NCBI RefSeq assembly: GCF_003931565.1
Contig: NZ_RRYI01000004.1
Location: 124,001-188,000, forward strand
DNA length: 64,000 nucleotides
Direction: 5' to 3'
From: Caulobacter sp. 602-1
GTDB taxonomy: Bacteria; Pseudomonadota; Alphaproteobacteria; Caulobacterales; Caulobacteraceae
Part shown: piece after piece, positions 45,215-64,000 of the stretch
Layout of the letters: each line of letters opens with the position of its first letter
Position numbering within the stretch: position 1 is the first letter of the stretch
Notes under the pieces: generated by a model
What the model saw: the letters and a program-made list of their open reading frames with translations, nothing else
Database searches by the model: none
What the model was told of the DNA's origin: nothing
Position numbers and translations under genes: made by a program

Positions 45215-46777
45215 ATGACCACCGAAACCCACCACCAGCGCGTCCTGATCGTCGACTTCGGCAGCCAGGTGACCCAGCTGATCGCGCGCCGGGTGCGGGA
45301 AGCCGGCGTCTATTGCGAGATCCATCCGTTCGACAAGGCCGAGGATCTGGTCGACGGCTACAAGCCGTCGGCCATCATCCTGTCGGGCGGCCCCGCCAGC
45401 GTGCTGGAGGATGACAGCCCCCGCATCGGCAAGAAACTCTTCGAGCTGGGCGTGCCGCTCATGGCGGTCTGCTACGGCCAGCAGTTGCTGTGCGACGTGA
45501 TGGGCGGCCGGGTCGAGGGCGGACATGCCGGCGAGTTTGGCCGCGCCGAACTGACCATCGGCAAGGTCAGCCCGCTATTCCAGGGTCTGGCCGACATCGG
45601 CGGGCTGGAAACCGTCTGGATGAGCCATGGCGACCGCGTCACCGCCATCCCCGAAGGTTTCGAGGTCATCGCCACCTCGACCGGCGCGCCATTCGCGGCG
45701 ATCGCCAATGACGAGAAGAAGATCTACGCCGTGCAGTTCCACCCCGAGGTGGTCCACACGGTCAACGGCGCCAAGATCTACCGCAACTTCCTGTTCAACA
45801 TCGCCGGCCTTAAGGGCGACTGGACCATGGCGGCCTTCCGTCAGGAGATGGTCCAGAAGATCCGCGACCAGGTCGGGACCGGCAAGGTGATCTGCGGCCT
45901 GTCGGGCGGCGTCGACAGCTCGGTGGCCGCCGTCCTGATCCACGAGGCGATCGGCGATCAGCTGACCTGCGTGTTCGTCGACACGGGCCTCTTGCGAAAG
46001 AACGAGGCCGAGCAGGTCGTGACGCTGTTCCGCGACCATTACAACATCCCGCTGGTCCACGTGGACGCCGGCGAGCTGTTCCTGGGCGAACTGGCCGGCG
46101 TCACTGACCCGGAGACCAAGCGCAAAACCATCGGCCGTCTGTTCATCGACGTCTTCGACAAGGAAGCCGCCAAGATAGACGGCGCACAGTTCCTGGCCCA
46201 GGGCACGCTCTATCCTGATGTCGTCGAAAGCGTCTCGGCCCGGGGCGGCCCCTCGGCGGTGATCAAGAGCCACCACAATGTGGGTGGCCTGCCGGACTAT
46301 ATGAAGCTGAAGCTGGTCGAGCCGCTGCGCGAGCTGTTCAAGGACGAGGTTCGCGCCCTGGGCGTCGAGCTGGGTCTGGCCCCGGCCTTCGTGGGGCGCC
46401 ATCCGTTCCCCGGTCCGGGCCTGGCCATCCGCATCCCCGGCGAGATCACGCCCGAGAAGGTCAAGGTCCTGCAGGACGCCGACGCCATCTATCTGGAGGA
46501 GATCCGCAACGCCGGTCTCTACGACCAGATCTGGCAGGCCTTCGCCGTGCTGCTGCCGGTGAAGACCGTCGGCGTCATGGGCGACGCCCGCACCTATGAG
46601 AACGTCCTGGCCCTGCGCGCCGTCACCTCGACCGATGGCATGACCGCCGACTTCTTCGAGTTCCCCTGGCCGATCCTGGGCAAGACCGCCACGCGGATCA
46701 TCAATGAAGTCCGAGGCGTCAACCGGGTAGTCTACGACGTGACGTCCAAGCCGCCCGGCACGATCGAGTGGGAGTGA
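45215..46777 (+). CDS. guaA: GMP synthase (glutamine-hydrolysing)
   Basis: GuaA (520 aa) aminates XMP to GMP. The class I glutamine amidotransferase domain (1-200) has Cys86 in [10 protein letters not shown] and the His/Glu in VQFHPEV; the ATP-pyrophosphatase domain holds the P-loop [13 protein letters not shown], and the dimerisation domain ends [11 protein letters not shown]. The reading frame is complete to its normal C-terminus even though an integrase gene begins 316 bases downstream, as expected for an element that inserts at the 3' end and restores the end of the gene. Confidence 0.97.
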
Positions 46778-47093
46778 TTTAGGGCCTTTTGGGGACCTTC
46801 GCGGACCATCGCGAATATCGATTAACTCATTGAAATAATAAGTGTTCTGGCTCTCCAACGATCGGCGACGATCGAGGGGAGCCAGTTCAAATTTCGTGCG
46901 ATTGACGGTACGCCCGCGACCTTGCTCGCGAGGGTGAGCGGCTGATACCGTCAGGCAAGTCAGGCCTGACGGTATTTTTTCTCACATCAAGCCCCTGAAT
47001 TTCCTCAGAAAAGGTGCTCCCGACATGCCGTTTTTGGCGTGACGGTATTTTGCGGCCTTTTCGTCGGTTTTCGGGGCAAGAAGGAGGCCGTTC
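46778..47093. other. guaA-integrase intergenic region with repeat cluster
   Basis: No gene. It holds an imperfect hairpin (46847-46856 with 46876-46885, CTGGCTCTCC against GGGGAGCCAG), three direct and one inverted copy of TGACGGTA, a perfect 12-bp stem-loop with a T-run, and the integrase ribosome-binding site (AAGGAGG before 47094). This should be the left attachment junction and integrase promoter. Confidence 0.7.
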
Positions 47094-47166
47094 ATGCTCA
47101 CCGATGCCGCACTCAAGTTTTTGAAACCAAAGAAGAAACCGTACAAGGTCGCGGACCGTGACGGTA
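46903..47166. repeat. TGACGGTA repeats, candidate integrase arm sites
   Basis: The octamer TGACGGTA occurs at 46903-46910, 46967-46974, 47040-47047 and 47159-47166, and inverted (TACCGTCA) at 46946-46953. The copies at 47038 and 47157 share 13 bases (CGTGACGGTATTT). The last one lies in the integrase coding sequence. Several short repeats beside an integrase gene at the island end is how arm-type integrase sites look; function is inferred. Confidence 0.6.
46945..46980 (+). terminator. Hairpin with T-run between guaA and integrase
   Basis: A perfect 12-bp stem (46945-46956 with 46964-46975), 7-base loop and TTTTT tail. It has the form of an intrinsic terminator for guaA. Because its arms are the TGACGGTA repeat in inverted orientation, it may instead or also be a binding site of the integrase or its regulator. 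Confidence 0.6.
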
Positions 47167-48350
47167 TTTACGTCGTGGTCTCTCCCGCCGGCTCCATCAC
47201 CTTCCGTCTCGACTACCGGATCAACAACCGCCGGGAGACCCTGACGCTTGGTCGCTACGGGCGCGATGGCGTCAGTTTGCTAAAGGCGCGAGAGCTTGGA
47301 ATGGAAGCTCGGCGCAAGGTGAGGGAAGGGGTCTCGCCGGCGATCGAAAAGCAGCGCGACAAGGCGCGCATCAAGGCGGCCAAGACCTTCGCCGACTTCG
47401 GGCGCAAGTGGATCGAGGAAGGTCGCATGGCCGACAGCACTCGCGCCATGCGTCGCGCGATCTACGAGCGCGACGTCGAGCCGGCCTTCAAGAACCGGAT
47501 GCTGACGGAGATCGAACCGGGCGATGTTCGCGCGCTCTGCCAACTGGTGAAGGATCGCGGGGCGCCCGCGACCGCCATCCACATCCGAGATCAGATCAAC
47601 CTGATCTTCGCCTTCGCGCGCCTGCACGGCGAGAAGGTGGAAAACCCCGCCAAGGACGTCAGCCCGTCGTCGATCTGGTCTTTCACGCCGCGCGAGCGGG
47701 CGTTGTCGCCCAAGGAGATCCGGCTGCTCTATCCGCTTCTTGAGCAGGTCCCCACCTTGCCGACGATCCGGCTTGGCATGAAGCTCATCCTGCTGACCCT
47801 GGTGCGCAAGAGCGAGCTGCAGGACGCCACCTGGGACGAGGTCGACTTCGTCAACGCGATCTGGAGCATTCCCGCTGCCCGGATGAAGGCCAGCCGGGCC
47901 CACAACATCTACCTGTCGACCCAGGCCCTCGACATCATGATCGCGCTGAAGACCTGCGCAGGAAACTCGCCGTACCTCCTGCCTTCGCGCTATGAGGCCG
48001 ACCAGCCCATGTCGCGGGCTACGTTCAACCGCGTGACCATGAGCATTGCCGAGCGGGCCAAGGCGCAGGGGCTCCCGCTCGCGCCGTTCACGGTCCACGA
48101 CCTGCGCCGGACGGGCTCGACTCTGCTCAACGAGATCGGGTTCGAAAGCGACTGGATCGAGAAGTGCCTGGCCCACGTCGATCGGCGAACCTCCCGTCGC
48201 GTCTACAATGTCGCCGAGTACGCCCAGCAGCGCCGGCACATGCTTCAGGAGTGGGCGGACATGATCGACGCCTGGGTGCGGGGCGAGCGGCATATCCCGA
48301 CCTTGAAACCGGCGGACATCCACGGGGTCACGCTGGATCCACGGACCTGA
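47094..48350 (+). CDS. tyrosine-type site-specific integrase
   Basis: A 418-residue integrase of the phage/island type with an N-terminal arm-binding DUF4102-like domain (residues 1-85: KKPYKVADRDGIYVVVSPAGS), a core-binding helical domain (about 105-190) and the catalytic domain. Catalytic residues: Arg in LTLVRKSELQDATWDEVDF, His and Arg in FTVHDLRRTGSTLL, His in CLAHVDRR and the nucleophile Tyr in RVYNVAEYAQQRRHM. It should insert and excise the island at the guaA 3' end. A strong AAGGAGG lies 7 bases before the ATG. The gene seems intact. Confidence 0.95.
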   Translation: MLTDAALKFLKPKKKPYKVADRDGIYVVVSPAGSITFRLDYRINNRRETLTLGRYGRDGVSLLKARELGMEARRKVREGVSPAIEKQRDKARIKAAKTFADFGRKWIEEGRMADSTRAMRRAIYERDVEPAFKNRMLTEIEPGDVRALCQLVKDRGAPATAIHIRDQINLIFAFARLHGEKVENPAKDVSPSSIWSFTPRERALSPKEIRLLYPLLEQVPTLPTIRLGMKLILLTLVRKSELQDATWDEVDFVNAIWSIPAARMKASRAHNIYLSTQALDIMIALKTCAGNSPYLLPSRYEADQPMSRATFNRVTMSIAERAKAQGLPLAPFTVHDLRRTGSTLLNEIGFESDWIEKCLAHVDRRTSRRVYNVAEYAQQRRHMLQEWADMIDAWVRGERHIPTLKPADIHGVTLDPRT

Positions 48351-48527: not shown

Positions 48528-48827
48528 CTATCGGTTCCTGACCGGTCGGATCTTGCGGTCGCGGACATCGGGCAGGGGCGCGCGCTCTTGGGTCCCTTCC
48601 TGAGCTTGCCGCTTGCGCTCGGCCAGCCAGGTCTCGACCTCCGTCAGATCCCAGACGACGCAGCGGCGGGTCAGGGCGAAGCGGCGGGGGAATTCGCCGC
48701 GACGCTCCATCTCATAGATGGTCGTGTCGGCTAGCGGGACGATCTTGTGGAGCTGGGCGCGGCGGATCGCACGCAGGGGCGGGCCGTCGGCGGTCCGGGC
48801 TTTGTCAGGGGATGGGATTTGGGTCAT
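48528..48827 (-). CDS. AlpA-type helix-turn-helix regulator (excisionase-like)
   Basis: A 99-residue protein with a winged helix of the AlpA/excisionase group: LRAIRRAQLHKIVPLADTTIYEMERRGEFPRRFALTRRCVVWDLTEVETWLAERKR. AlpA proteins switch on integrase genes or act as recombination directionality factors for islands; this one lies right beside the integrase gene, convergent to it. The start at 48827 (MTQIPSP) was chosen because an in-frame upstream start adds unconserved Arg/Ser-rich residues. The C-terminal 25 residues are polar and probably disordered. Confidence 0.88.
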   Translation of the reverse strand: MTQIPSPDKARTADGPPLRAIRRAQLHKIVPLADTTIYEMERRGEFPRRFALTRRCVVWDLTEVETWLAERKRQAQEGTQERAPLPDVRDRKIRPVRNR

Positions 48828-48975
48828 GGCGTCCTCACGCCGTGACCCTGCTGCGCTGCCGATAGAGCGCGCAACCGACAAGCGGCCATCGGCGCGGGCC
48901 GGAAATCAAAGACAACAAGACGGCGGGGCGACGCGACCGCGGTCCGTTCGGGACCTGGGTCGCGCCGCCGTATCG

Positions 48976-49965: not shown

Positions 49966-50154
49966 TCAGGCCTGGATCGGTTGGAAGTTGCCGGGGTCCA
50001 GGCCTTCTGGGATGCCGCGCACATAGAGGCCTTCGGCGTGATGGCGGGCGAAATCCTCCACCTCGTAGACCTGTCCGTTAAAGATCCCCAGGTGCGGAAG
50101 GTCGGGGCCCGTGCGCATCACCGGCTGGCCGGGTTCGAAGGCATGCTCGATCAT
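49966..50154 (-). CDS. small hypothetical protein (62 aa)
   Basis: A 62-residue acidic protein (MIEHAFEPGQPVMRTGPDLP, then HLGIFNGQVYEVEDFARHHA) with a beta-rich look that could be a small SH3-like fold; no family recognised. The start at 50154 has GGGAGACCTCC directly upstream, a good ribosome site. It follows the AlkB gene by 53 bases on the same strand and may be the last gene of that SOS-linked operon. Confidence 0.6.
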   Translation of the reverse strand: MIEHAFEPGQPVMRTGPDLPHLGIFNGQVYEVEDFARHHAEGLYVRGIPEGLDPGNFQPIQA

Positions 50155-50207: not shown

Positions 50208-50855
50208 TCAAAACACGTGTTCGTCAGAGAGGTGAATGCGTTCGGGCGCTCGCGTGGGCACGGTGCGGAACGTTACCGAGTAGCGCAGGGCCTCCACCGG
50301 CGGGATGCTGTGCTGCCATTGGCTGCGCGAGGGACCGCTCATCAGATAGACCGAGCGCGGCTGGGCCTCGATCGAGGCCCGGTCCCAGGCTTGGCCCGAC
50401 CGACGACGCAGGCGGAAGGTGCAGGGGGACAGCAGCGAGACCCCGGCGATGGCGATGGCCGGTGGCCGGTCGCGATGCCAGCCGATCCCCGCGCCTGGCG
50501 CGTATTCGGTGACCAGGGCGTGGGCGAAGGTGGTGCGAGCAAACCCCGTGAAGGCCGCGACCTTGTCCAGCAGCGGAGCGAGGAAATCGGGCAGAGGCTC
50601 GCCGGTCTCCACCAGCGCGCCGTCCGGTCCGCGTCGCCAGCCGAACCCAGCGACCCGCCGGTGGCCCTGATAGCCCTTGTGCTCATAGGGCTGAAAATCC
50701 AGGTCCGCGAACCGCGCGACCAGGGCTTGCTCCTCGGCCAGCGTGATCAGCTCGGTCTGGTGGCGAAAACCCTCAGGCAGGGGCGTCTTGGGGGCGATCG
50801 GCAGGTCAAAGAGGCTGGGCTGGAAATCGATTGCGCGCGAGGGGCGGGGGCTCAC
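50208..50855 (-). CDS. AlkB-like 2-oxoglutarate/Fe(II)-dependent DNA repair dioxygenase
   Basis: A 215-residue AlkB homologue that should oxidatively remove alkyl groups (1-methyladenine, 3-methylcytosine) from DNA. Iron ligands are His and Asp in GIGWHRDRP and the later His in QWQHSIPPV; the 2-oxoglutarate contact is Arg in LRYSVTFRTV. YEHKGYQGHRRVAGFGW is the nucleotide-recognition lid seen in ALKBH2/3-like bacterial enzymes. GTG at 50855 is the start and overlaps the stop codon of the gene before it, so the two are translationally coupled. The operon begins with a perfect LexA box. Confidence 0.92.
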   Translation of the reverse strand: MSPRPSRAIDFQPSLFDLPIAPKTPLPEGFRHQTELITLAEEQALVARFADLDFQPYEHKGYQGHRRVAGFGWRRGPDGALVETGEPLPDFLAPLLDKVAAFTGFARTTFAHALVTEYAPGAGIGWHRDRPPAIAIAGVSLLSPCTFRLRRRSGQAWDRASIEAQPRSVYLMSGPSRSQWQHSIPPVEALRYSVTFRTVPTRAPERIHLSDEHVF

Positions 50856-51226
50856 AGGCCGACCTCCTCGGGCAGAACCCCGGCGTCGAGCAGCATCGTC
50901 ACAACATGTGCGCGCTGGGTGGCGGGGGTGTCGGCCTGGGCGTCCTGGTAGCCGCCCCGCATCAGGCGGACGATGGGCCAATGGCCGCCGCAGCCGCGCT
51001 GGGGGCAGAACACTCCGGCCTGGACCTGGGCGATGGTGCGGGCCAGGCGCTTGCGCAGGCGCTGGCCGAGAAACTCGCGACGCCCCCAGGTCCGCTCCAT
51101 GCCACAGTACTGGCAACGGAACTGGACGTCCCAGCCACGCTCCAGGCAGTCGACCAGGCGCATGGCGGCCATGGCCGGCTGCAATCGGGCGGCCTTGCGC
51201 CGGTCGCTTTCGCTGGGTTCAGGCAT
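50852..51226 (-). CDS. hypothetical protein with cysteine-pair motifs (124 aa)
   Basis: A 124-residue protein with two cysteine pairs spaced like a zinc ribbon (RCQYCGMERTWG and FCPQRGCGGHW, residues about 38-80). A polar start (MPEPSESDRRK) and a C-terminal helix (TQRAHVVTMLLDAGVLPEEVGL) flank it. It probably binds zinc and perhaps nucleic acid, but no family is recognised. It overlaps both neighbours (8 bases with the gene before, 4 with AlkB), placing it in the SOS-linked AlkB operon. Start chosen at ATG 51226. Confidence 0.7.
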   Translation of the reverse strand: MPEPSESDRRKAARLQPAMAAMRLVDCLERGWDVQFRCQYCGMERTWGRREFLGQRLRKRLARTIAQVQAGVFCPQRGCGGHWPIVRLMRGGYQDAQADTPATQRAHVVTMLLDAGVLPEEVGL

Positions 51227-51539
51227 CGGCCGGCGGCTCCACCTGCCGCACCGCCCGCCACCAGGGCCAGCGGTGATCGCCGCCGCGCTCGATCTTCTCA
51301 ACCTCGAACCAGGCAACGTCGCCGTCGAAGTCCGGCACGTGCTGCGGATCGACGTAGTCGGCGCGGCTGCTCAGGCCCCGATCCGTGTGCAACAGGAAAT
51401 GTAATGTGCGACGGGTCTGCGTCGACCCATAGCCCTCGGTGACGGCGATCCGCGTCAAGCGGGCGATGGTCCTCTGGTAGACCCGCGGCGATCGTGGGAC
51501 ATGTGGGCGCGCGCGCGGATCGGCGCGTTTGGGCGGCAT
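51219..51539 (-). CDS. hypothetical protein, first gene of AlkB operon (106 aa)
   Basis: A 106-residue protein: basic N-terminus (MPPKRADPRARPHVPRSPRVYQRT), a helical middle (IARLTRIAVTEGYGSTQTRRTLHFLLHTDRG) and an acidic, Trp-rich end (VAWFEVEKIERGGDHRWPWWRAV). No family recognised; the basic tail and the operon suggest DNA binding, but that is a guess. The ATG at 51539 is 16 bases downstream of a LexA box, so LexA bound there would cover or sit next to the promoter. It is the first of at least three coupled genes. Confidence 0.65.
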   Translation of the reverse strand: MPPKRADPRARPHVPRSPRVYQRTIARLTRIAVTEGYGSTQTRRTLHFLLHTDRGLSSRADYVDPQHVPDFDGDVAWFEVEKIERGGDHRWPWWRAVRQVEPPADA

Positions 51540-51554
51540 GATAGGGCTCCAGAT

Positions 51555-51569
51555 GTTCCCTAATTGTTC
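51555..51569 (-). promoter_or_regulatory. LexA (SOS) box of the AlkB operon
   Basis: GTTC-CCTAATT-GTTC, a perfect match to the alphaproteobacterial LexA operator GTTC-N7-GTTC. It ends 16 bases before the first start codon (51539) of the minus-strand operon that includes AlkB. Confidence 0.8.
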
Positions 51570-51682
51570 CCATTTATCGTGAGCGAGAGTCAATCATCCG
51601 CAGGTTGGCCGATCGCTGTTCAAGCTGTCGCTGACCGCTAGGTCGTTGGAATAAGCGACACGGCCCCCGATATTATTCGGGA

Positions 51683-58905: not shown

Positions 58906-59271
58906 TCAGGCCGCGTGGCCGGCGGCGGGCGCGGCCGGCTCGGCGAGCGCCTCGCTCTCCTCAAGCAAGGCGTAGCGGATCGGCGGCCAGGTCGCGCCCG
59001 GCTCGACCTCGCCGGGCGTCTGCTGCGATCCAGCCAGGTGGACCAGCAATTCATTCATCCCGTGGGAAACCGCGTGCGCCCAGGCGGCGTGACCGCAGTC
59101 GGCCTGGCGGCTGATGTCCTGGGCCAGGTCCAGGCAGAAGATCGTGCGCCCGCCGTCAGGATCGCGGCGGGCGAAGGCGAACAGGCCGCCGCCGCGCACG
59201 AAGCGGCCATCATGATGGTAGAGGCTCATGAACTGGACGCCGCCGATCACCACGCTGTCGTCCGTCGTCAT
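58906..59271 (-). CDS. hypothetical protein with LexA box upstream (121 aa)
   Basis: A 121-residue protein: MTTDDSVVIGGVQFMSLYHHDGRF, then GLFAFARRDPDGGRTIFCLDLAQDIS, CGHAAWAHAVSHGMNELLVHLAGS and a Pro/Glu-rich tail (ALLEESEALAEPAAPAAGHAA). No family recognised; it looks like a soluble, single-domain protein. The start at 59271 follows GGGAG by 8 bases. A LexA box GAAC-N7-GAAC sits 31 bases upstream, so it should be induced by DNA damage. Confidence 0.65.
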   Translation of the reverse strand: MTTDDSVVIGGVQFMSLYHHDGRFVRGGGLFAFARRDPDGGRTIFCLDLAQDISRQADCGHAAWAHAVSHGMNELLVHLAGSQQTPGEVEPGATWPPIRYALLEESEALAEPAAPAAGHAA

Positions 59272-59640
59272 GTCGCGTCTCCCAAGGCGTCTGAGGAATA
59301 AGAACAAAAATAGAACGAACTTCGGCCGCGAGTCGAATCCGTTCGGCGCCGAGGCTAGGGCAGGGCGCCGAGTCTTTCCCACAGGGTCTCTCTGATCGAT
59401 CGCCTTTCCCTGTGGATTGAGGGTCTCAACGCCCTGATCCACAACGTTTTGGCGCGATCCGGACAGACGCCTCCACCGCCCGCCAGGCGTCGTTGAAAAG
59501 ATCCGCGCAGGCCAGACCGGCCAAGCGCCTCGTCCCCCGGGCGCGGCCGGTCGCGGCGGCCCGGCCCGACGGTCTCCCCCGCCGTCGCCCGGGCCGCCGT
59601 TCCTAGCGCTTTCCTTGGCACGGCGGGCCGGAGCACCATC
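59272..59640. other. Intergenic region with LexA box
   Basis: No gene supported. It carries the LexA box at 59302-59316 serving the minus-strand gene, and a long G+C-rich stretch (59500-59630) before the DUF736 gene at 59641, whose promoter must be here. No stable RNA or further repeat was recognised. Confidence 0.55.
59302..59316 (-). promoter_or_regulatory. LexA (SOS) box of the 121-residue protein gene
   Basis: On the plus strand GAAC-AAAAATA-GAAC; read on the gene's strand it is GTTC-TATTTTT-GTTC, a perfect alphaproteobacterial LexA box. A third GAAC follows directly (59317-59320). It lies 31 bases upstream of the start at 59271. Confidence 0.7.
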
Positions 59641-61484: not shown

Positions 61485-61598
61485 ATGCAAACCACCTTCA
61501 AACTGATCGCGGTCGGATCGGCCAAGGCGCTGACCCAGGCCGGCGAGATCCAGCTCGTGCCGGAAAACATGACCCCCCGGCTCTACGAGGGTTCGTGA
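61485..61598 (+). CDS. lasso peptide precursor 1
   Basis: A 37-residue precursor. The leader MQTTFKLIAVGSAKALTQ has the GSAxxLT pattern seen in Caulobacter lasso leaders, with Thr at position -2 before the cut. The core would be AGEIQLVPENMTPRLYEGS: Ala1 with Glu9 gives a nine-residue ring, and PE precedes the ring acceptor as in caulonodin VI, whose core also starts AG and has PE at 8-9. An alternative cut before Gly2 would give an eight-residue ring but put Thr at -3. A ribosome site AAAGGAAC is upstream. It is followed by a second precursor and the B and C genes. Confidence 0.85.
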   Translation: MQTTFKLIAVGSAKALTQAGEIQLVPENMTPRLYEGS

Positions 61599-61638
61599 AC
61601 CGAGGGCGGCGGGCGGTTTCCGCCCGCCGCCGATCGCG

Positions 61639-61658
61639 GCGAATATAGATTTGAATAT
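61639..61658. repeat. 20-base repeat before second lasso precursor
   Basis: Exact copy of the 20-base sequence at 61398-61417, 84 bases upstream of the second precursor start (the first copy is 87 bases before its precursor). The spacing suggests a duplicated promoter-precursor unit. Confidence 0.75.
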
Positions 61659-61722
61659 CAATCACGCCGGTCGCTTCCTGATTGTCACCGCAAGTCGCGG
61701 TTGAACGAAAGGAGAGACCAAG

Positions 61723-61827
61723 ATGACCCAGAGACTGATCCGCGTCGGCTCCGCGTCGAGCCTGACCCACGGCACCGAAGGCGTGTTCCCTGAGGACATT
61801 TCGCCCCGGCCGCATGAAGGCATCTGA
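61723..61827 (+). CDS. lasso peptide precursor 2
   Basis: A 34-residue precursor that is easy to miss because of its length. Leader MTQRLIRVGSASSLTH, again with VGSAxxLT and Thr at -2; core GTEGVFPEDISPRPHEGI. Gly1 and Glu8 fit the standard eight-residue macrolactam ring with a ten-residue tail. Both precursors share the tail pattern PRxxEG. The ATG follows AAAGGAG by 9 bases. It is transcribed with the B and C genes 74 bases downstream, and its own copy of the 20-base repeat precedes it. Confidence 0.85.
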   Translation: MTQRLIRVGSASSLTHGTEGVFPEDISPRPHEGI

Positions 61828-61901
61828 GCCTTGCCGGCGGCGGCCGGCCAGGTCGCCGCCGGTCTTCACTTCCCTGGCTTTCCGTTCCAAGCGAGCTGAC
61901 C

Positions 61902-62558
61902 GTGCAACTTGAACTGCCCCCGGCGGTGCATGCGGTGATGATCGACGATGACCTCGTCCTTCTCGACGCGGACGCCGACATCTATTTCTGCCTGCCCTTG
62001 CCAAACGGTCTGGCGCGACTGGAGGGGCGGGGCCTGCACACGGCTGACGCCATGCTCGGCGCGGAATTGATCGGCGCGGGTCTGGCGCGGCCGGCGAGCG
62101 GGCAGGGCCCAGATCTGCCGGCGCTGCCCGCGACGCCGACCCGCACAGCCCGTGCGGTGCTGGAGGACCATCCCGATCTCCACGTCCGGTTTCGCCCGAT
62201 CCACCTGGTCGCCCTGATCGCCGCCGTCCGCGCGGCGCTGGCGAGCCGGCGCGAGACGTTCGGCGACCTGATCGCGTCCACGCCGCGGCGAGTGGGGCAG
62301 GGGCGAGGTCAGGCCGCGCTGCTGGCCGACCTCGCCGTCTGGCGGCGCATCACGCCCTGGCTGCCGCTGGATGGCCTCTGCCTCTTCCGCAGCCGCATGC
62401 TCCTGGCCTTCCTGCACGCTCTGGGCCACCGGCCCGGTTGGGTCTTCGGCGTCAGGACCTGGCCGTTCCGCGCCCACTGCTGGCTGCAGGCCGGCGACAT
62501 GGTCTTGGATGACGAGGCCGAGCGGGTGAGCGCCTTCGCGCCGATCCTGGCGGCCTGA
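61902..62558 (+). CDS. lasso peptide B protein (leader-binding domain plus cysteine protease)
   Basis: A 218-residue fused B protein. Residues 1-80 form the PqqD-like RiPP recognition element that holds the leader (HAVMIDDDLVLLDADADIYFCLP); residues about 95-218 form the transglutaminase-like protease that removes it. The triad is visible: Cys160 in DGLCLFRSRML, His192 in FRAHCWLQ and Asp203/Asp204 in MVLDDEAE. GTG at 61902 is the start. The C gene follows 3 bases after its stop. In actinobacteria these two domains are separate genes; the fusion is normal for proteobacterial lasso clusters. Confidence 0.92.
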   Translation: MQLELPPAVHAVMIDDDLVLLDADADIYFCLPLPNGLARLEGRGLHTADAMLGAELIGAGLARPASGQGPDLPALPATPTRTARAVLEDHPDLHVRFRPIHLVALIAAVRAALASRRETFGDLIASTPRRVGQGRGQAALLADLAVWRRITPWLPLDGLCLFRSRMLLAFLHALGHRPGWVFGVRTWPFRAHCWLQAGDMVLDDEAERVSAFAPILAA

Positions 62559-62561
62559 GCC

Positions 62562-64000
62562 ATGGCCTACCTGATCCTGTCCTGTCTCGGCGGCGCCAGC
62601 GCCCAGCCGTTCGAAACGATGATCCTCGACCTGCGGGCGCGCGGCTGGACTCAGGCCCTTGGGACCCATGGCCTGGCGGTCATGGTGCGGGGTCAGGCGA
62701 ATACGCCCGTCCGGGCCTTGGGCGATTGGCGGGGGACCGTCGGCGCGGTTGTCGGCGAAGTCTTCGATCGCGCCGCGCTCGACGAGGATGGCGCGGCCCT
62801 GTTCGATCTTGAGCCGCTGGGCCAGAGCGCCCGCGAGGATCCGCCCCAGGTGGCCCGGGCCTTGGCGCGCGAAGCGTTCGGCGACTATGTCGGCCTGATC
62901 CGCCGCTTCCATGGCGGCGCGCCGGTGGTGTTCACCGACCCGCTCGGCGGCCGGCCGGCCTTCGCCTGGGGAGGGGACGGGGTCACCGTCGTCGGCGACG
63001 CCCCGCCCGAAGGCTTGGCCGGGCCGCGCGACGTGGCCATCGACTGGGAGGGCGTGCGGGACCTGATGGCGGACCGGCGCCGCATGGGCGGCGCGCCGCC
63101 GCTCAAGGGCGTGACCTGGATCGAACCGGGCGTCTGTCGCCAGGGACCAGAGCTGTCCTTGCGCGAGACCCTATGGACGCCGGCGAGGGCGGCGCGACCG
63201 GGGTGGCGAGCGGGTTATCCGGCGCGCCTGCGACGGGCGGTCGATGGCGCGGTGCGGGCCTTCCTGCTCGGCAGGCGGCGGGTGCTCTGCGAGATTTCGG
63301 GCGGCCTGGACTCTGCGATCGTCGCCACCAGCCTCAAGGCGGTCGGGCGCCCGGCCGATCAGGCGCTGAACTTCTATCGCGCTCAGGTCGAAGCCGACGA
63401 AAGGGTCTATGCCGAGGCCGCCGCCGAGCGGGCCTCCACGCCCCTGCGCTGCGTGGAGCGGCCGCTGTTGGCCCTTACCGAAGCGGGGCTGATGCGCGGG
63501 GCCGGGGCCTTTCGGCCCAATTTCGAGGTTCTCGACACCGACTATGACGACTTCACCTTGGCCGCGATCGCCGAGACGCGGGCCGACATCGTCTTCACAG
63601 GCCACGGCGGGGACGTGGTCTTCTATCAGCTCCAAGCGGCGGCATTGGCGGGGGATCTCTTGCGCGGTGTCCCTTGTGAAGGCTCACGCCTGGCGCGGCT
63701 GGTCGAAGTGTCGTTGCGCACCCGACGCTCGATCTGGAGCCTTGCCGCCCAGGCGGTGCGGGGGCGGCCCAACGCCAGCGTCGTGGCCGCCACGACCGCG
63801 CCCCGGATGATCGCGCCGCCCATCCGGCCCGGGCTTTGGCATCCATGGATGGCGGGACTGGGCGCGATGCCGCCGGCCAAGCGCGCCCAGATCTCCGGCC
63901 TGGCGTTGACGCAAGGAGTGTTCGCCGACACCCGGCGCGGCGCGGCCGCGCGCCAATGCCACCCGCTGCTCAGCCAGCCGGTGGTCGAAGCATGCTTGGC
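62562..64000 (+). CDS. lasso peptide macrolactam synthetase (McjC-like), 3' truncated by window
   Basis: The gene is open from ATG 62562 to the window edge, 479 codons and still in frame. It resembles asparagine synthetase: a degenerate N-terminal amidotransferase-like domain without the catalytic Cys2 (MAYLILSCLGG, about 1-200), then the PP-loop CEISGGLDSAIVATSL (SGGLDS at residues 246-251) and the downstream TDYDDFTLAAIAETRADIVFTGHGGDVVF region. It activates the Glu/Asp side chain as an AMP ester and closes the ring with the N-terminus of the core peptide. It follows B by 3 bases, so the order is A-A-B-C. Genes beyond it are not seen. Confidence 0.93.
   Translation, partial: MAYLILSCLGGASAQPFETMILDLRARGWTQALGTHGLAVMVRGQANTPVRALGDWRGTVGAVVGEVFDRAALDEDGAALFDLEPLGQSAREDPPQVARALAREAFGDYVGLIRRFHGGAPVVFTDPLGGRPAFAWGGDGVTVVGDAPPEGLAGPRDVAIDWEGVRDLMADRRRMGGAPPLKGVTWIEPGVCRQGPELSLRETLWTPARAARPGWRAGYPARLRRAVDGAVRAFLLGRRRVLCEISGGLDSAIVATSLKAVGRPADQALNFYRAQVEADERVYAEAAAERASTPLRCVERPLLALTEAGLMRGAGAFRPNFEVLDTDYDDFTLAAIAETRADIVFTGHGGDVVFYQLQAAALAGDLLRGVPCEGSRLARLVEVSLRTRRSIWSLAAQAVRGRPNASVVAATTAPRMIAPPIRPGLWHPWMAGLGAMPPAKRAQISGLALTQGVFADTRRGAAARQCHPLLSQPVVEACL

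Follow-up and report, generated by a model that had tools for sequence, protein, structure and literature searches.

A probable SOS-controlled alkB operon on an ICE-like island of Caulobacter sp. 602-1, and a family of related cassettes with varying cargo

The window, by which we mean the whole stretch of 64,000 nucleotides of Caulobacter sp. 602-1 that was analysed, contains a compact group of genes read from the minus strand behind a LexA (SOS) box. The features of this locus are:

51588-51593, minus strand: TTGACT, a probable -35 element that precedes the box by 18 bp
51555-51569, plus strand: LexA (SOS) box GTTC-CCTAATT-GTTC, GTTCCCTAATTGTTC, assigned by pattern match and by conservation among relatives
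51219-51539, minus strand: gene1, a basic protein of 106 aa that leads the cassette; OB-like beta fold predicted (model and profile searches)
50852-51226, minus strand: gene2, 124 aa, C38/C41 and C74/C79, probable zinc ribbon (conserved Cys pairs)
50208-50855, minus strand: alkB, 215 aa, 2OG-Fe(II) oxygenase with a GTG start (Pfam and motifs)
49966-50154, minus strand: orf62, a 62-aa frame downstream of alkB and a possible fourth gene of the operon (a similar frame follows alkB in locus L153)

A preliminary description of this DNA had presented the locus as a tightly overlapping three-gene operon behind a perfect LexA box. The box is there, read directly from the sequence, and gene order and coordinates are correct, with overlaps of 8 bases between gene1 and gene2 and 4 bases between gene2 and alkB. 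The distance from the box to gene1 was given as 16 bases; counted from the ATG at 51539 it is 15. Read on the operon strand the box is GAACN7GAAC. The gene1 promoter thus carries a box of the GTTCN7GTTC type by which the alphaproteobacterial LexA regulon is recognised, and GTTCN7GTTC is also the Caulobacter SOS motif according to excerpts of PMC12700426. A fourth gene of the operon is possible, because a frame like orf62 also follows alkB in L153.

The third gene product matches the Pfam family 2OG-FeII_Oxy_2 with 63.4 bits against a gathering score of 31.2. The motif of the AlkB superfamily consists of H-x-D, a distal H and R-x5-R, and these are present as WHRD, QHS and RYSVTFR. With this score and these motifs the identification as an AlkB dioxygenase holds at the level of the superfamily, the same Fe(II)/2-oxoglutarate oxygenase superfamily to which E. 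coli AlkB belongs. The cut-offs of the E. coli-type equivalogs are not reached (TIGR00568, 19 against 231.05 bits; PRK15401, 20.1 against 267 bits), and the nearest solved structures are AlkB homologs 8, 6 and 2, all of them remote.

In searches of Pfam and NCBIfam the two proteins encoded ahead of AlkB reached no curated cut-off; PHROGs gave nothing for them at E <= 0.1, and the PDB sequences nothing below E 0.2. A defence system was considered and rejected, PADLOC giving no match for gene1, gene2 or alkB. The AlphaFold2 model of gene1 has five strands and a pLDDT of 81.5. In the structural comparison its best match (Z 7.1, rmsd 2.0, 60 residues) is middling and within the range of common arrangements, and a Foldseek search with the gene1 and gene2 models returned nothing at E <= 0.001, the best for gene1 being E 0.098. 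Most of the structural matches are to OB-type domains, among them those of cold shock proteins, RNase II and R, and initiation factor 5A; the comparison is suggestive of an OB fold. The calculated pI is above 8 in 29 of 29 aligned gene1 proteins, and judged from the model the protein is probably nucleic-acid-binding. For gene2 the model has a pLDDT of 82.8 and matches PDB structures weakly, zinc-ribbon types among them (best Z 3.5, rmsd 2.3, 51 residues). The Cys pairs noticed earlier in this protein, C38/C41 and C74/C79, turned out to be conserved.

By profile search gene1 is present in 28 of the 75 genus genomes examined, which makes it an accessory gene, and in 50 of 299 genomes of the family. 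The class-wide sample gave a single genome out of 372, the window's own, and in the searches made here gene1 appears only in Caulobacteraceae. Matches to gene2 occur in 9 of 299 genomes of the order, two of them at E near 0.001, and in 3 of 385 genomes of the class sample, two of these being weak. In the open-access literature that we searched we found no description of gene1 or of the cassette that it leads.

How much weight the box can bear depends on how often such a pattern turns up by chance. The window holds five copies of GTTCN7GTTC against a mean of 1.63 after shuffling, and five or more were found in 2 of 100 shuffles. Across the whole genome (5.44 Mb) there are 126 sites, while the reversed pattern occurs 93 times; most bare matches are therefore noise, and the bare pattern by itself is weak evidence. 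A tighter form, GTTCYN4WTGTTC, which was chosen after inspection of the list of 126 sites, occurs 17 times against 3 times reversed; two of the 17 lie in the window, the box at 51555 and another at 59302. By simple proportion, 126 sites in 5.44 Mb correspond to about 0.7% per 320 bp. An alternative background of 4.0% of 320-bp windows (2.5% for the tight form) comes from loci rich in gene1, and the rate of the own genome is the fairer one.

The conservation check that the preliminary description had proposed was run on the relatives of gene1. The hits from profile searches at genus, family and class level, from GTDB contigs and from IMG/VR were collapsed to 52 distinct places. A broken gene1 (L118) is entered twice among these 52 rows, leaving 51 loci, and 48 of the 52 places have at least 300 bp of upstream sequence. 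A perfect GTTCN7GTTC lies within 300 bp upstream of gene1 at 42 of the 48, in the tight form at 33. Among the other six, L047 has a perfect box further upstream, ahead of an extra first gene, L154 has one about 1 kb upstream, where a longer row of genes starts, and in L093 it lies at -360; the best upstream match of L152 is 7-of-8 at -400, and L091 and L092 have no convincing box within 600 bp upstream. This conservation among relatives, read from sequence, is the decisive support for the box being real.

The promoters add a second element. Of 28 aligned promoters, 22 have TTGACT 14-20 bp ahead of the box and 25 have TTGAC. It should be noted that these 28 were picked out of the 48 for having a box, so that half-site conservation among them is there by construction; that of TTGACT is not. 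This spacing would suit a LexA that covers the -10 region; a -10 element itself could not be identified.

The genome of the window also encodes a LexA (PF01726, 58.6 bits, G000:C208:274194; G000 denotes this genome), with a second, borderline match at C175, and a perfect GTTCN7GTTC, bare and not of the tight form, lies just upstream of the lexA gene at C208. Tight sites precede genes for an MmcB-like repair protein, a DNA glycosylase and two radical-SAM proteins, one of the latter of a DNA modification/repair family; another stands before an ImuA-like protein which scores below its curated cut-off. Further tight sites precede MraZ, a glyoxalase, a DUF72 protein, a SocA-like antitoxin and frames without matches, where a role in repair is not evident. 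At the antitoxin gene (L034, G000:C186:57908) the tight box lies 10 bp before the start. Because of the excess of tight sites, the repair-type targets and the lexA gene with its own upstream site, the box is very probably the SOS operator of this genome.

The second tight site of the window belongs to another unit on the island, about 7 kb from the alkB operon, and further along lies a cluster resembling those of lasso peptides (61485-63998, plus strand):

59302-59316, minus strand: second LexA-type box on the island, GTTCTATTTTTGTTC (pattern match, tight form)
58906-59271, minus strand: gene5, 121 aa, no known domain, behind the second box
61485-61598, plus strand: 37-aa precursor-like ORF of the lasso-peptide-like cluster, assigned by eye
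61902-62558, plus strand: transglutaminase-type protein of this cluster (PF13471)
from 62562, plus strand: asparagine synthase-type protein of this cluster (PF00733)

In the genus the gene5 family has a box 40-58 bp before the match at 9 of 20 loci, all nine with at least 65% identity, and no box within 300 bp at the other 11, all with at most 64% identity.

These counts bear on the simplest alternative, that the box at 51555 is a chance match and the operon lies outside LexA control. The bare pattern is certainly common, in the window and in the genome, also when reversed. The recurrence upstream of gene1 in 42 of 48 relatives stands against chance; so does gene5, where the absence at 11 loci tells us that a match is not automatic, and so do the 19 alkB relatives lacking gene1 and gene2, only two of which have a box within 150 bp, six of the 19 lying behind a polymerase gene and possibly using a promoter further upstream. 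The proportion of 17 to 3 tight sites together with the conservation at gene1 rules out a chance box as far as we can judge, and we give this explanation next to no credence.

Among the 75 genomes of the genus, AlkB matches were found at 39 places in 27 genomes, and 30 of these loci were read. In ten of the 30 gene1 lies upstream of alkB, and for nine of these ten the stretch read includes a perfect box; one has gene2 and no gene1, with a box at -976. At six loci (L160, L164, L165, L166, L173 and L175) alkB directly follows a gene for an error-prone DnaE-type polymerase; for L160 the best NCBIfam match is to the error-prone model, and the other five were assigned by eye. L169 may be a seventh such locus. 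The arrangement is possibly an alkB extension of the imuA-imuB-dnaE2 operon. In a tree built from 27 AlkBs, one clade of 16 (support 99/98) takes in all ten that are linked to gene1, together with four of the six polymerase-linked ones. AlkB must therefore have changed context at least once, and the AlkB type of the window is tied to SOS genes by two routes, through the gene1 cassettes and through the polymerase genes.

What follows gene1 differs from relative to relative. If genes that lie within 3 kb of gene1 and on its strand are counted, which does not prove a single transcript, the 52 rows divide as follows:

gene1-gene2-gene3-SRAP: 11 of 52 rows
gene1-gene2-alkB (the type of the window): 5 of 52 rows
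gene1-gene2-gene3: 4 of 52 rows
gene1-gene3: 4 of 52 rows
gene1-alkB-dinB: 3 of 52 rows (L138, L142 and L143)
gene1-alkB: 3 of 52 rows, two of them the broken L118
gene1-dinB: 1 of 52 rows
gene1-SRAP: 1 of 52 rows
gene1-gene3-SRAP: 1 of 52 rows
gene1-gene5: 1 of 52 rows
gene1-gene2: 1 of 52 rows
gene1 with no recognised cargo in the stretch: 17 of 52 rows, some stretches being short

In all, SRAP is found in 13 of the 52 rows, alkB in 11 (the broken L118 being counted twice; 10 of 51 loci) and dinB in 4. Pfam confirmed one example of SRAP, one of DinB and two of a DnaQ-like exonuclease which occurs in 7 rows and is transcribed away from the gene1 region; NCBIfam concurs on DinB and the exonuclease and gave no match for the SRAP example. 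SRAP is found only in the cassettes of relatives, gene1, gene2, alkB and orf62 of the window having no Pfam match to it. The own genome has three copies of gene1, all with a box: the one in the window, a gene1-alkB-dinB at C197 and one without cargo at C175. At L138, L142 and L145 the dinB downstream of gene1 has a GTTCN7GTTC of its own, about 50 bp ahead of where the conserved part of the protein starts.

By its arrangement in these sequences, gene1 is the constant member and the cargo varies behind the box. Because of this variation, the cargo being SRAP, DinB or AlkB, we reject a partnership of gene1 and gene2 specific to AlkB. The preliminary description had suggested that the two proteins are new partners in alkylation repair or in DNA repair generally. 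The two do not look specific to alkylation; with boxed gene1 found next to SRAP, DinB and AlkB, a role in general SOS repair fits better.

The same constancy of gene1 beside a variable AlkB can be turned into a different explanation, in which AlkB is a passenger gene, while gene1 and gene2 serve to regulate or to sense damage (one could think of a factor for transcription or for a checkpoint). Small basic OB-like proteins and zinc-ribbon proteins can also target RNA or polymerase, as this explanation would have it. It has to account for recognised cargo that consists mostly of repair or damage-tolerance enzymes and for an AlkB that has kept its catalytic motifs, and we consider it quite unlikely.

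The reading that we prefer is that gene1-gene2-alkB, perhaps with orf62, is a LexA-repressed repair operon carried as cargo by an ICE-like island. We put its probability at roughly 0.7. The mobile part of this reading depends on the surroundings of the operon:

45215-46777: guaA frame, named by eye
47094-48350, plus strand: the island's tyrosine integrase, adjacent to the guaA 3' end
48528-48881, minus strand: AlpA-type regulator of the island

The 3' end of guaA is repeated together with the sequence that follows it: positions 46759-47000 of the window align over 243 bp with G000:C186:456352-456592 (84%), which lies 285.6 kb downstream in the same contig, and the alignment reaches the end of the query that was used. 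The length of the repeat suggests a second related island or a remnant at the far end. Between the repeats lie genes for TrbE-, TrbL- and TrbI-type proteins and a secretion ATPase (C186:371583-380569), and the window itself encodes ArdC and a ParB-like protein. The earlier claim of a mobile island is borne out by the integrase at guaA, the distant end repeat and the trb genes in between; the operon of the window is, as these features are read, carried on an ICE-like island at guaA whose boundaries are putative.

Relatives are found in similar company. One relative of the operon is on a conjugative Caulobacter plasmid. At L056, whose contig equals in length one classed as viral by IMG/VR, tail and endolysin genes follow the gene1 cassette, and at L060 an endolysin gene is nearby; L059 has one large protein without a PHROGs match. 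At L139, L140, L143, L146 and L153, five loci picked by eye from 17, gene1 has a gene for a recombinase or integrase at a distance of a few kb. In five of nine IMG/VR loci (L129, L130, L132, L133 and L134, on contigs of 40-54 kb) gene1 stands at the start or the end, as if the prophage prediction cut there.

All of this could mean that the cassette works for the mobile element and not for the host: single-stranded DNA exposed during conjugation or prophage excision would induce the SOS response, and the operon would repair or protect the DNA of the element itself as it enters or replicates. This is the main rival of our reading. It is favoured by the presence of gene1 cassettes on the ICE-like island, on the conjugative plasmid and near phage tail and lysis genes, by the IMG/VR loci that begin or stop at gene1, by the five recombinase loci and by a recognised cargo suited to damaged single strands or gaps, on which AlkB, SRAP and DinB act. 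The gene1-alkB-dinB arrangement points the other way, as it couples the cassette with an ordinary polymerase of the host, in the own genome (L138) as well as at L142 and L143. At L138 and L142 no recombinase was noticed by eye in the stretch read; the recombinase gene near L143 weakens this part of the case. Moreover, the operon of the window lies about 2 kb from the integrase and far from the trb genes. On balance we find service to the element unlikely.

For the LexA-repressed repair operon the following course of events is hypothesized. In undamaged cells LexA would sit on the box, just downstream of the -35-like TTGACT, and block RNA polymerase; from this position the box probably lies over the -10 element or the start site. 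When RecA filaments form on single-stranded DNA LexA would be cleaved and the overlapping genes be made together. AlkB would reverse alkylated bases in exposed single strands. The predicted OB-like, basic gene1 protein would most likely bind single-stranded nucleic acid, the predicted zinc ribbon of gene2 would bind DNA or a partner, and together they would bring AlkB to damaged gaps. The box with its conservation, the promoter element, the order of the genes, the AlkB motifs, the exchange of cargo and the mobile surroundings are read from sequence, and the folds are predictions; LexA binding, induction, single-strand binding and recruitment we infer.

The control of an alkB gene by LexA is not new in kind. 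The alkB gene of Streptomyces venezuelae is listed as a LexA target, with binding and expression data (PMC9380542). That organism belongs to another phylum and has another box, and the excerpts of the paper mention no gene1, gene2 or mobile island. In E. coli alkB is under Ada control (PMC1839093, in excerpt), whereas a LexA-type box takes this place here. Excerpts of other studies describe the alkB gene of Pseudomonas putida as constitutive (PMC3788762), that of C. crescentus as cell-cycle dependent and the C. crescentus dinB gene as without evidence of SOS control (both PMC1839093), and another AlkB-like gene of C. crescentus as responding to methylation damage (PMC10957082).

Two known kinds of SOS operon come closer. 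The imuA-imuB-dnaE2 operon has been characterised in Caulobacter crescentus, as cited in excerpts of PMC1839093 and PMC3765255. It is alike in being an SOS-controlled operon of Caulobacter, as the present one probably is, and the six AlkBs of relatives directly behind an error-prone DnaE-type polymerase gene recall it; in contrast, the operon of the window is without a polymerase and is led by gene1. The SOS neighbourhoods of SRAP (YedK/HMCES), which also occur in prophages, contain uncharacterised zinc-ribbon-like proteins and DinB or DnaE2 (PMC3765255, in excerpt), and are similar to the Caulobacter relatives with gene1-gene2-gene3-SRAP. The excerpts of that paper describe no gene1-like protein, and the words "alkB" and "dioxygenase" have 0 occurrences in it. 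From the sequences compared here, the cassettes form a family of repair units, some of them mobile, that are probably wired to the SOS response and are led by a new protein; in kind this family extends the known SOS operons, and two small protein families, gene1 and gene2, have been named.

A further hypothesis is that gene1 is the first member of a new family of adaptors which are induced in the SOS response and bind single strands. It would be an interchangeable front end, one LexA promoter with gene1 being combined, on mobile elements and on chromosomes, with AlkB, SRAP, DinB or small zinc-ribbon proteins. We regard this as possible, with the odds somewhat against it. If true, it would mean that damage-tolerance kits spread as plug-in modules which are pre-wired to the SOS switch of the host.

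The AlkB of the window is under probable SOS control, as opposed to the cell-cycle-dependent alkB that excerpts of PMC1839093 describe for C. crescentus. The findings raise the question whether mobile elements bring along ready-wired damage tolerance to survive single-strand transfer, and they point to LexA-wired repair modules which move among an island, a plasmid, prophages and chromosomes within one bacterial family.
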